Below are positions 31 to 5,816 of a stretch of DNA of 5,816 nt, in pieces; position 1 is the first letter of the stretch, and each line of letters opens with the position of its first letter. Origin of the DNA: a bacterium (GTDB lineage: Bacteria; JAJVIF01; JAGGVT01); contig JAGGVT010000075.1 of NCBI GenBank assembly GCA_021157815.1, positions 1 through 5,816 of the forward strand, in the 5' to 3' direction. The position numbers and the translations under genes are program-made. The notes under the pieces were generated by a model. The model ran no database searches. It saw only the letters and a program-made list of their open reading frames with translations, and was not told the DNA's origin.

Positions 31-121
31 TCGCTGATTATATCTGCTTTCTCGGACACTGTATTAACACTTAGCAAATTTAATCGAACGCCGTTTTTTT
101 ATATCTCAACATCCCAACCAC

Positions 122-160
122 CTATTTCCACCCAATCACTCTAGCGCACCGCTCGATAAA
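122..160 (-). pseudogene. remnant or duplicate of an RND pump gene 3' end (13 codons including stop)
   Basis: Read on the minus strand this segment encodes F-I-E-R-C-A-R-V-I-G-W-K-stop. It matches the last 12 residues and stop of the intact pump gene (F-V-E-R-C-A-K-L-I-G-W-K-stop at 288-250). By eye, 32 of 39 bases are identical. The differences are three conservative replacements (I/V, R/K, V/L), two synonymous changes and a different stop codon (TAG for TAA). In-frame homology ends sharply at 161-163, where a TGA precedes the Phe codon, and the GTAACCCGG element starts at 164. It has no start codon and cannot be a gene. It is either what is left of a tandem paralogous pump gene after a deletion, or a diverged gene-end duplication made by an integrating or recombining element. 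The pattern of changes suggests the copy once diverged under protein-level constraint. Confidence 0.65.
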
Positions 161-163
161 TCA

Positions 164-233
164 GTAACCCGGGGACGCTTCCCCGGGCTTTAGTCGTATT
201 TTGACTTCGCCCGGCAAGGCGTTGCCGGGTTAC
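164..233. repeat. 70-bp palindromic element with GTAACCCGG terminal inverted repeats (copy 1)
   Basis: The ends are a perfect 9-bp inverted repeat, GTAACCCGG (164-172) and CCGGGTTAC (225-233). Inside are two independent hairpins, each exactly 20 nt: CCCGGGG/CCCCGGG at 168-187 with a 6-nt loop, and CCCGGCAA/TTGCCGGG at 210-229 with a 4-nt loop, separated by a 22-nt AT-richer spacer. The architecture matches the element at 3347-3421. It lies 16 nt past the pump stop codon at the 3' end of the operon, so the RNA hairpins could slow 3' exonucleases or contribute to transcription termination. Neither hairpin is followed on the minus strand by a proper U tract, so I do not call an intrinsic terminator. 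Both strands fold equally well, and no coding capacity is seen. Confidence 0.8.
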
Positions 234-249
234 ATATTATAGCTGCCTA

Positions 250-3200
250 TTACTTCCACCCAATCAATTTAGCGCAACGCTCAACAAATTCATCCAGCAT
301 GGAGTAAACGACCGGTACGATAACGAGGGTTAAGAACATCGATGTCAGCAGGCCGCCGATTACGCAGACTGCCATCGGAGCCTGCATCTCTGAGCCAGCA
401 CCTGTGCCGAGCGCTACTGGAAGCATTCCGAAAACCATGGCGAATGTAGTCATCATGATTGGACGCAGCCGTACGGGAGCAGCCTCAAGGATTGCCTCCC
501 TGCGACTTTTGCCGCGAGAGCGAACCGTATTTATGTAATCAACAAGAAGAATTGCGTTTTTGGTGACTAATCCCATGAGCATGATTATTCCAAGCATGGT
601 CATGATATTGATTGACATTCCTGAAAGATACAGCGCACCCAATGCTCCGATGAGGCTAAGTGGCAGGGAAATCATAATTGAAAACGGATGGATGAAATGC
701 CCGAACTGGCTGGCGAGAAGCATATAGATAAGAAGAACCGCAAGCGCCATCGCGAAAAACAGGCTCTGGAACGTTTCCTCCATCATGTCTGATTTTCCTG
801 AATATGAGTAACTGACATTTGGAGGAATGATTTGCTCAATTGTTTCATTTGTTATGTTTTTTGCAGTTCCCAATGGCAGATTGTCAAGATTTGCAGAAAT
901 GGTGATAGCTTTTCGGCGATTCTTGTGAGCAATTTCCGATGGGCCTGAACCGCTTTCAATACGCGCCACAGTTCCAAGGTCAATAAGGCTGCCGGTCATT
1001 GAGCGTACGGGAATTGCCAGAAGGTCCATTGGGTCATCACGATAAGATTCGCTCAGCCTGACTTTCACATCATAATCCTGTCCCGCTTCCTTGAAAGAGG
1101 TAATTACACTTTCACCACTGACAAGACCGTTTACAGTTGCGGCGATATCCATTACACTCAAACCAAGCCTGCTTGCCCTGTCACGATCAACATGGACTCT
1201 AATCTCCGGTTTCCCGGATTCGAAAGATGTATCCACGTCCACGAATCCAGGCGTAGCTTTCCATGCTTTTACAAGTTTGTCGGATGCCACTAGAAGGTTG
1301 TCAAGTTCCTCTCCCTGAAATGTAATTTGAATATCACCACTGCCCATGCCTGTCGATACGGGGTCGGACATCTCTACTGAAATTTTCACACCAGTAATAT
1401 CAGCAAGTTTCTCACGTGTAAGCGCGATAATTGCATTCTGCCCCATTTTTCTTTCACTTTTCGAAACAAGTGCGATTTGAATATTTGCTTCAGTTATTGT
1501 CTCAACCGCACCCGCGCCAACGGATGAAAAAACCGCTTCAACTCCCGGAATCTCATTGATAATATTCTCAACCTCAATAATTTTACTTTCTATTAAACTG
1601 ATTGGGCTTCCAGGAGGTGTTTTAATATTGACACTGTACATTTCCTGGTCCATATCCGGTTCGAATTCAAACGGGATTAATGAACCTATCCACATACTGA
1701 AAATAAAGATAATGACCGCTGTAAATACGGTCAGCCATTTGTATTTCATTGCTCTTCTGAGCAATTCGCGATAGCCAATGTCCAGTGCGTCAAGGCCTCT
1801 TTCTATTAATTTAAAAAACATACCGTGAGATTTGGTTACAACAAGGAACCTGCTTGCCAGCATTGGTGTCAATGTGAAGGATACAAACAACGAAACAAGA
1901 ACGGCGAAGGATACTGTCATTCCAAACTGGTACAGGAACTTTCCAATCATACCGTACGTGTACGCAACCGGCACAAAAACAGCCACGATTGAAAAAGTGG
2001 TCGCCATGACAGCAAGCCCGATTTCCGTTGTCGCGTTTCTGGCGGCATTCGTCGGCGATTCACCGGCTTCATTATGGCGATATATATTCTCCAAAACAAC
2101 GATAGCGTCATCAATTAACATTCCAACCGACAGCGACAATCCAAGCATCGATATGATATTAAGTGTGAATCCCATAGCATGCATGAATGTAAATGTTGCG
2201 ATAATCGATGTAGGAATGGCGAGAGCGCTTATTAACGTGCTTCGAGGACTTCTGAGAAATAAAAACACAATCAGTACGGCGAAAAAACCACCATAAAAGA
2301 GGTGCATGAGAAGTTCCTCGAAACTTGACCTTATGAATATTGATTCATCCTCTGGGATTTCAATTTCAATACCCGGTGGAAGTTCATTTCTCAGTTCATT
2401 GATTCCCTCGTTTATTCTCTCAGCAACCTTTACTGTATTAGCACCTGATTTTTTCCTTACAATCAAGCCGATTGCATCCTTGCCATCCAGACGCGCAAGT
2501 GACCGTTTTTCCTCTATTGTGTCATCCACATCCGCGATATCATTTAAGCGAACAAGACCATCAGGAGATTGTTTGATAATGATATCTCCGAATTCATCAG
2601 CGACGAGAACGCGTCCTTTTGTCTTAACAACAAGTTCCCGTGTTCCGGTTTCGATACGACCTCCCGGAATTTCAATGTTACTCATTTTAAGCGCGCCGAT
2701 AACCTCATTTACGCCTATGTTGCGTTCACGCATCGCGTCAGGATTCAGGCGGACATGCACTTCGCGTTCACGGCTTCCGACCATTTTTACTGAACCGACG
2801 CCCTGAATACTCTCAAATCTCGATTTGATACGATCCTTAACAAACGTAGTCAGATTGGATAAAGGCATGTCAGCGGAAACAGCAAGCATCATGACAGGAA
2901 TAGCGCCGATATCGAGTTTTTCAACAATCGGGGTTTCGGCATCCTGTGGAAGATCGCGTTTAATTGATTCAAGCCTGGCGCGAACATCCTGCGCCGCAAT
3001 GTCGACATCAACATTCAGCTCATATTCTATAAACACCAGCCCGACATTTTCCAAAGCTCTTGATCGAATCTGCTTGATTCCCGAAAGTGTGCTGACTTCT
3101 TCCTCAATCTTATCAATGATTTCCGATTCAACTGTTTCAGGATCTGCGCCGGGATAAACAACAGTGACCGTGATCATAGGAAAGTCAACATCGGGCATTA

Positions 3201-3306
3201 AATCGATTCCCAGTTGGCCATAGCTTATGTAGCCAAAAACTACAAGCGCAAGAATCACCATTGTTGTAAAAACCGGCCTGCTTATGGATATATTTGAAAG
3301 GAACAT
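250..3306 (-). CDS. RND efflux pump, inner-membrane subunit (HAE1/AcrB-like)
   Basis: A 1018-residue proton-driven exporter of the resistance-nodulation-division superfamily, expected to work as a trimer in the inner membrane and take substrate from the periplasm or outer leaflet. The N-terminus (MFLSNISISRPVF) is the classic RND start. TM1 spans about 12-30, the first porter/docking half about 35-330, TM2-TM6 about 335-485, TM7 about 523-543, the second periplasmic half about 545-845, and TM8-TM12 about 848-1003. The proton-relay residues are present: the Asp pair D399-D400 in TM4 (GMLIDDAIVVLEN) and K916 in TM10 (GLVTKNAILLVDY). The Asp pair points to HAE1 rather than the metal-exporting HME branch. 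The length is slightly below AcrB (1049). The start is forced: the frame has a stop eight codons upstream and no other start codon between. The Shine-Dalgarno is weak (GAGA only 4 nt from ATG). The gene is last in the operon, 118 bp after the adaptor, and ends with tandem in-frame stops TAA TAG. Its final 12 codons have a diverged copy at 122-160. Substrate is unknown. Confidence 0.96.
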   Translation of the reverse strand: MFLSNISISRPVFTTMVILALVVFGYISYGQLGIDLMPDVDFPMITVTVVYPGADPETVESEIIDKIEEEVSTLSGIKQIRSRALENVGLVFIEYELNVDVDIAAQDVRARLESIKRDLPQDAETPIVEKLDIGAIPVMMLAVSADMPLSNLTTFVKDRIKSRFESIQGVGSVKMVGSREREVHVRLNPDAMRERNIGVNEVIGALKMSNIEIPGGRIETGTRELVVKTKGRVLVADEFGDIIIKQSPDGLVRLNDIADVDDTIEEKRSLARLDGKDAIGLIVRKKSGANTVKVAERINEGINELRNELPPGIEIEIPEDESIFIRSSFEELLMHLFYGGFFAVLIVFLFLRSPRSTLISALAIPTSIIATFTFMHAMGFTLNIISMLGLSLSVGMLIDDAIVVLENIYRHNEAGESPTNAARNATTEIGLAVMATTFSIVAVFVPVAYTYGMIGKFLYQFGMTVSFAVLVSLFVSFTLTPMLASRFLVVTKSHGMFFKLIERGLDALDIGYRELLRRAMKYKWLTVFTAVIIFIFSMWIGSLIPFEFEPDMDQEMYSVNIKTPPGSPISLIESKIIEVENIINEIPGVEAVFSSVGAGAVETITEANIQIALVSKSERKMGQNAIIALTREKLADITGVKISVEMSDPVSTGMGSGDIQITFQGEELDNLLVASDKLVKAWKATPGFVDVDTSFESGKPEIRVHVDRDRASRLGLSVMDIAATVNGLVSGESVITSFKEAGQDYDVKVRLSESYRDDPMDLLAIPVRSMTGSLIDLGTVARIESGSGPSEIAHKNRRKAITISANLDNLPLGTAKNITNETIEQIIPPNVSYSYSGKSDMMEETFQSLFFAMALAVLLIYMLLASQFGHFIHPFSIMISLPLSLIGALGALYLSGMSINIMTMLGIIMLMGLVTKNAILLVDYINTVRSRGKSRREAILEAAPVRLRPIMMTTFAMVFGMLPVALGTGAGSEMQAPMAVCVIGGLLTSMFLTLVIVPVVYSMLDEFVERCAKLIGWK

Positions 3307-3346
3307 ATTGTCTCGCTTGTTTTGTAATTAGTTAATATTTGAATTT

Positions 3347-3421
3347 GTAACCCGGCGCCCCTTCGCCGGGGTAATGCGTGAATCTACCACCATTTTCCCC
3401 GGTTAAGGGAAACCGGGTTAC
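3347..3421. repeat. 75-bp palindromic element with GTAACCCGG terminal inverted repeats (copy 2)
   Basis: Perfect 9-bp terminal inverted repeats, GTAACCCGG (3347-3355) and CCGGGTTAC (3413-3421), enclose two 20-nt hairpins: CCCGGCG/CGCCGGG at 3351-3370 and CCCGGTT/AACCGGG at 3398-3417, each with a 6-nt loop, separated by a 27-nt spacer. The ends and two-hairpin plan are those of the element at 164-233, while the spacer and loops differ, so these look like two diverged members of one dispersed family. This copy fills most of the 118-bp gap between adaptor and pump, starts 3 nt after the adaptor stop, and ends 40 nt before the pump start. In the operon mRNA it could stabilise the upstream message or reduce read-through into the pump gene. 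That role is inference. Confidence 0.8.
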
Positions 3422-3424
3422 AAT

Positions 3425-4713: not shown

Positions 4714-4859
4714 CACCATGCTAAAGCGCTTGTTGATAAACTCACTTTCTCGTAGCCCGTCATGCCTGCGAAGGGAAACGGGTTGGATTCGCATTTTCGC
4801 ATAAAGGCATGACGGGCTACGGTTCTAATAGGTTTTTCAACAGCCCCTAAAGCATGGCG
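4714..4859. mobile_element. MITE-like non-autonomous element with IS-type ends
   Basis: The segments 4714-4742 and 4831-4859 form an imperfect inverted repeat, with 21 of 29 positions matching by eye. Reading inward from the right on the minus strand, the end contains TTTAGGGGCTGTTGAAAAAC; the left end has the decayed counterpart with TTGTTGATAAAC. The string GGGGCTGTTGAAAAA resembles terminal inverted repeats I know from several bacterial insertion sequences, but I cannot name the family. A direct repeat CTAAAGC at 4721-4727 and 4847-4853 could be a target duplication, although it lies within the outer inverted repeat, so the exact borders are uncertain. No transposase is encoded, and the centre is occupied by the hairpin at 4751-4821. 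It fills most of the 200-bp gap between channel and adaptor genes and ends 7 nt beyond the channel stop codon. Confidence 0.5.
4751..4821. repeat. 71-bp perfect-stem palindrome (GTAGCCCGTCATGCC type)
   Basis: CGTAGCCCGTCATGCCT at 4751-4767 is exactly complementary to 4805-4821, giving a 17-bp perfect stem. Inside, GCGAA (4768-4772) can pair with TTCGC at 4788-4792 or 4796-4800. The start resembles the widespread CGTCATNCCNGCGAA class of dispersed repeats. The interior AAGGGAAACGGGTT (4771-4784) resembles AAGGGAAACCGGGTT in the element at 3405-3419, so the families may share parts. There is no U tract after the stem on the minus strand, so it does not look like a standard terminator; as RNA it would separate the channel and adaptor parts of the message. 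Confidence 0.8.
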
Positions 4860-4866
4860 TTATTTT

Positions 4867-5816
4867 TTATTTAGACAATAATGTTTTATAAAATTCATCA
4901 GTTGATTCAAAACCGCTTTCCATCGCGAGTTTCGCCAGTTCTCTATATGAATCATAGATAGATTGGTTGTATTCAAGTTTCGCGGCTGCCAGAAGAGTTT
5001 CACCCTCCAGCAGATTTGTTGTTCGCTCAAGCCCCTCACTAAATCGCTCGTTGAGAATCCTGAGATTCTCTGTTGCCGATTTAAGATTTTCGCTTGTTAC
5101 ATCAATGTTGTCCAACGCCCTGAAATAATCATCAAGTGATTTGTTAATGGAAATTTCAAGTTTCTGTTTAATGTCCGTTCGTTGAATTTCCAATGCCGCA
5201 ACAGACTCCTCAAGCTGTTTTATCTCGCTTGAAATCTTCTTCGAATCATAGATAGGCCAGCTTAATTGAAGAGTGGCAGAGAAAGCGTTTGGGTCACCGC
5301 CAAGTCCGTTGCCACTTACTTTGAAAGTGTCGCCCTCATTGCTGTACTGGCTGATGAAATTCAGTGATGGCCGTTTTCCAGATTTCACCATTTGAAGGCG
5401 TTTGCTGAGCATATCAATCTGAAGATTCATCTCTTGAATTTCCCCATTTTGTCGTAATGCGAGTTCAACAACATCCAGCCTGTCCAATTCAACATCGCGC
5501 GATGGCTTGTCAGGCTCAAGAGTTTGCAGATTGGAATCGACATCAAGCCCCAGAATCTGGCAGAAGCTCATTACCGCAGTATGTTCAATGTCCTGCGCGG
5601 CGCGAAGATCCATTTGCGCGCGTCCTTTCGCGACATTCATCTGAAGAACATCACTCGCATGAAAGAAACCTTCCCGCTGCATTAATTGCGCGTTTCGGTG
5701 TGCTTCAGTTATAAACTCAAGCGATGCTGTACGAACATCAACAAGGCGTCTTGCGCTTAGAACGCCGTAATATGCCTGCACAGCGCCGTACGCGATTCCC
5801 CGTCTTGCGATATCGA
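4867..5816 (-). CDS. TolC-family outer-membrane efflux channel, 5' end missing
   Basis: The C-terminal 315 residues of an outer-membrane efflux protein, the exit duct of the tripartite pump. The frame is open to the window edge. The GTG at 5781 is an internal valine codon, since the preceding in-frame residues (RRGIAYGA) continue the family motif A-x-A-Y-Y-x-x-L seen at VQAYYGVL. Next come a long helical segment with the G-x-x-x-x-x-D-x-L pattern (REGFFHASDVLQ) and an ILGLD helix end. The second structural repeat follows: GKRPSLNFISQYS, then the beta-strand motif LQLSWPIYDSKK, then helices ending with LLEGETLLAAAKLEYNQSIYDSYRELAKLAMESG, typical of the family's C-terminus. Full members are usually about 420-480 residues, so roughly the first 130 residues (signal peptide, first strands and helix) lie outside the window. 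It is the first of the three operon genes visible here, 200 bp upstream of the adaptor, and any promoter should lie further upstream. Confidence 0.93.
   Translation of the reverse strand, partial: DIARRGIAYGAVQAYYGVLSARRLVDVRTASLEFITEAHRNAQLMQREGFFHASDVLQMNVAKGRAQMDLRAAQDIEHTAVMSFCQILGLDVDSNLQTLEPDKPSRDVELDRLDVVELALRQNGEIQEMNLQIDMLSKRLQMVKSGKRPSLNFISQYSNEGDTFKVSGNGLGGDPNAFSATLQLSWPIYDSKKISSEIKQLEESVAALEIQRTDIKQKLEISINKSLDDYFRALDNIDVTSENLKSATENLRILNERFSEGLERTTNLLEGETLLAAAKLEYNQSIYDSYRELAKLAMESGFESTDEFYKTLLSK

Follow-up and report, generated by a model that had tools for sequence, protein, structure and literature searches.

A diverged second copy of an RND pump gene's last codons beside a REPIN, probably left by an old local flank duplication

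According to Bertels and Rainey (2011; PMC3116915), REPIN clusters are typically tandem repeats that include the flanking sequences, and REPINs excise. The locus described here resembles such clusters, as it combines an inverted REP pair and resident RAYT-type genes with locus-specific sequence duplicated beside the REPIN, the flank being repeated in direct orientation next to it. It differs from them in having one REPIN between the flank copies and not two or more (one per unit), in that the duplicated flank consists of a gene's last codons and stop, and in that the copies are 88% identical instead of nearly identical. It also shares with the REP and BIME elements and their RAYTs described by Nunvar et al. 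(2010; PMC2817692) the intergenic palindromes, the alternating orientation and a Y1 transposase among the REPs, but the 5' tetranucleotide is here mostly GTAA, with GTAG variants, while the REPs listed in that study mostly have GTAG or GTGG. As in the attL/attR sites of integrative elements, copies of a gene 3' end border an insert on either side; here, however, the insert is a hairpin of ~77 bp without an integrase.

The window analysed, 5,816 nt, is the whole of contig C94 in a draft genome of 3.2 Mb (221 contigs, 91% complete). Its minus strand carries an RND operon with genes for an outer-membrane efflux protein, an HlyD-type adaptor and an AcrB-type pump (Pfam), and an Rfam search of the window gave no match. 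The features referred to below are the following.

1 to 127: 127 bp shared exactly with the end of contig C57 (assembly fork)
6 to 58: segment of a second dispersed repeat (AAAGGGGACGGACACCTTTTG...), with copies in C7, C51, C142, C39 and C143 at 83-97%
121 to 161, minus strand: tail 1, the diverged second copy of the RND 3' end (FIERCARVIGWK-TAG), non-coding there and downstream of the gene
162 to 238: REPIN of two inverted REPs (TAACCCGGGGACGCTTCCCCGGG, CCCGGCAAGGCGTTGCCGGGTTA) and a spacer, palindrome core 165-232 (from the inverted repeat, the fold and the genome copies)
246 to 289, minus strand: tail 2, the real RND gene 3' end and one copy of the repeat
247 to 252, minus strand: pump gene stop TAA at 250-252, then TAG at 247-249 (open reading frame)
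250 to 3306, minus strand: AcrB-type RND efflux pump gene, intact (1018 aa; Pfam ACR_tran E 2.2e-276; open reading frame)
5690 to 5816: exact 127-bp overlap with C7, typical of k-mer forks

Aligned without gaps, positions 123-161 and 251-289 are identical at 33 of 39 bases (E 1.9e-5 when searched against all 3.2 Mb of the genome). Allowing a 3-nt gap (252-254, ACT) lengthens the match, which then pairs 121-161 with 246-289 at 36/41 identities. The observed score of 48 compares with a best score of 33 in 5000 Markov shuffles of the left flank, and a degenerate tail pattern, allowed up to three mismatches, found the two tail sites and no third copy in the whole draft genome. A preliminary description of this DNA had proposed a diverged second copy of the pump gene's 3' end adjoining a palindromic element, and had named a chance match to intergenic DNA as one of the findings that would undo it; the copy is confirmed, the match lying far beyond the shuffled flank and being confined to two sites genome-wide. 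The match ends at ~161, the outer edge of the REPIN, and the rest of the interval first marked, 162-245 and 290-300, is REPIN, REPIN edge and ordinary coding sequence.

The translations are F-I-E-R-C-A-R-V-I-G-W-K-TAG for tail 1 and F-V-E-R-C-A-K-L-I-G-W-K-TAA for tail 2. When the indel is placed so that AAG-TAA-TAG (AAGTAATAG) faces AA---A-TAG (AA---ATAG), the apparent AAG/AAA and TAA/TAG differences reduce to a single 3-nt event, which also explains the 'tandem stops' TAA TAG of the intact gene, the downstream TAG being the shared stop. The two tails thus do not end in different stop codons, as had been proposed, and the TAA TAG pair does not call for a reworked join.

The segment between the tails is a canonical REPIN of a family resident in this genome. 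Both REPs of 162-238 fold together as a single hairpin (-24.4 kcal/mol, z -6.4), and C215 carries a 95% identical element in another context, without tail-like flanks. The genome contains 273 occurrences of the pattern GTAACCCGG against 6 of a reversed control pattern, and three same-class genomes have 13 to 47 of them each. Nine Y1_Tnp genes were found in the genome, and those on C85 and C182 sit amid these REPs; five exact REP tokens lie near the C85 open reading frame, whose product scores E 3.1e-8 against Y1_Tnp and contains an HxH motif (ILPDHIHWV). One REP of the window's REPIN can form a predicted terminator-like hairpin behind the gene, while the duplication itself needs no function. 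A single REPIN lies between the tails, and no second one was seen directly beyond tail 1.

Flank duplication is not special to this locus, as it recurs at at least one other REPIN. On C97 (L109 1434-1602; C97 5297-5380) a gene 3' end with its stop is followed by a REPIN and then by the 3' end once more, the same layout as in the window. The gene end reads ...AERKSAENADA-stop with the REPIN directly behind it, and 23 bp, GCCTGAACTGTCAATAATCATAG, are identical on either side, with GCC-TGA-ACTGTCAATAATCATAG beyond the REPIN; the identical stretch includes 3' untranslated sequence. C111 (L092) has the order REPIN-40 bp-REPIN-40 bp and C9 (L085) the order flank-REPIN-flank-REP, and tandem REPs with locus-specific spacers are present in C82, C69, C46 and C54. 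With the REPs masked, non-trivial direct flank repeats were found at 3/113 REP clusters versus 6 distinct ones in 1528 control windows, a modest enrichment (one-sided Fisher p 0.02) that is indicative only, as the control windows overlap; ~97% of the clusters lacked a flank repeat of such length. Another scan gave 3/121 clusters above the 99% null, one of those being of low complexity. Flank duplication is therefore not general to REPINs, and the idea that it is their usual target-site duplication was dropped on these counts.

Some further details of these loci may be noted. In the C97 copy the AEN-like codons are GCA GAA AAC against GCG GAG AAT, so that third positions alone differ. The locus-specific spacers of the tandem REP arrays in C82, C69, C46 and C54 (L202, L189, L175, L181) are repeated nearly unchanged, and the hairpin arms in these arrays can vary by paired changes, e.g. 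CGTCCCCTCG and CATCCCCTTG in C69.

We lean towards an old local flank duplication associated with the REPIN, of which one REPIN is now left, as the probable origin of tail 1. We infer the following course of events and mechanism. The intergenic stretch behind the RND gene holds a REPIN, together with which the last ~12 codons of the gene and the stop would have been duplicated locally, giving the order gene-tail 2-REPIN-tail 1-downstream, by the process that makes tandem flank-plus-REPIN units, possibly hairpin slippage or repair of a cut there. Such an arrangement could be expected since tandem REPIN clusters include their flanks and REPINs excise; with a single REPIN present, either the tandem unit must have lost one or the REPIN arrived with the duplication, and a second REPIN may never have been fixed or may have been excised. 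From then on tail 1 would have been free non-coding DNA. The event should be old, because five substitutions and a 3-nt indel separate the copies.

Those substitutions speak against REPIN-associated duplication, as do the single REPIN and the ~97% of clusters that lack a long flank repeat. The replacements between the tails, V/I, K/R and L/V, are all conservative, the remaining changes are silent and no premature stop has arisen; under random substitution, the absence of stops together with conservative replacements alone was obtained in 0.2-1.2% of simulations (p 0.002-0.012), a post hoc value from one case of 12 codons. Codon-wise conservative divergence of this kind is not predicted of a non-coding relic and would be a little unusual in one. 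The preliminary description had read it as divergence under protein-level selection, and this pattern, one post hoc case though it is, is the strongest point in favour of that view. On its account recombination with a diverged orthologue is the foremost competing explanation, although we regard it as unlikely. Here tail 1 would be the tail of a related species' orthologue, brought in by illegitimate or homology-facilitated recombination with a fragment that ended in the orthologue's last codons, included the region downstream of it and was joined at the REPIN edge. Six bases into tail 1, at 127, the assembly forks, which can reflect strain variation there and agrees with a foreign fragment, but no orthologue with this tail is known, the homologues found having unrelated C-terminal tails at ~47% identity or less, and the 23 identical bp on C97, with their 3' untranslated sequence, are unexpected from a diverged donor. 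We also considered the fork at 127 as the trace of a REPIN-less allele but base nothing on it, as a simple tail 1/tail 2 recombinant would fork at 126 or 139. The conservative changes would also suit a downstream tandem paralogous RND gene that was lost from the REPIN edge up to its 13th last codon so that its tail remained, as the preliminary description had suggested, and distant genomes sometimes do have tandem RND genes (e.g. contig C87 of G004). We find this improbable: the deletion would have to end exactly at the REPIN edge, each match listed for the three same-class genomes is a lone gene without another RND gene next to it, and in the 91% complete draft the other RND genes found reach no more than 33% identity in the matched parts and none of them carries the tail.

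Direct repeats of ~22-43 bp flank REPINs in C94, C97 and C9, as they would if a RAYT had inserted the REPIN with a long (~40 bp) target-site duplication; most REPINs, including the 95% identical copy in C215, have none, enzymes of the IS200/IS605 type reportedly produce no larger duplications (PMC2817692), and such an insertion seems to us quite improbable. A broader form, in which RAYT-driven insertion or copying of REPINs in this lineage makes target duplications of ~20-45 bp and so gives gene ends a free second set of C-terminal codons and stop, we hold to be highly doubtful. That an element integrated at the gene's 3' end, supplied a replacement tail and then shrank, the other history offered in the preliminary description, is extremely improbable, for all that the arrangement resembles attL/attR around a gene 3' end: the interior is the resident REPIN only, no integrase was found in the list of open reading frames for the window, and the C97 REPIN is flanked in a similar way. 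An assembly artefact or strain chimera might be suspected in a metagenome-like draft with forks at both contig ends. It is very unlikely, since the junctions lie inside the contig and the apparent k-mer of 127 exceeds the ~77 bp of the REPIN, so that assembly words span the REPIN with both flanks; the analogous case is moreover on another contig.

REPIN-associated duplication is a simpler account than a lost gene or an integrated element, as a duplicated REPIN flank at a gene end mimics the remnant of a paralogue, and such tails can mislead annotation. The window locus is ordinary in kind, probably a known type of REPIN-associated flank duplication that took in a gene's last codons. Genomes rich in flank-duplicated REPINs are places where footprints of REPIN movement and amplification can be read.

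Within 1.5-kb flanks of the RND gene in same-class relatives, none of the genes of C57 and C7 was found. The second dispersed repeat (AAAGGGGACGGACACCTTTTGTATCGCTGATTATATCTGCTTTCTCGGACA) overlaps the final codons and the stop of a short open reading frame on C57 (...TYKGDGHLLYR-stop), and a similar sequence is apparently present at the end of the C85 open reading frame (...KEDSALFRN-stop). The repeat seems to provide C-termini; near the Y1 transposase gene of C65 there are related AAGGGGAC(A/G)G motifs. Beside the window, a small lipoprotein-like reading frame at 7986-8564 of C57 (L209) is interrupted in frame by a TAG at 8283-8285 and may, judged from its sequence, be a pseudogene. Within the operon, the gap between the pump and adaptor genes contains a second REPIN-like inverted pair (window 3345-3423), and that between the adaptor and outer-membrane genes a separate 17-bp perfect inverted repeat (CGTAGCCCGTCATGCCT; window 4751-4821).
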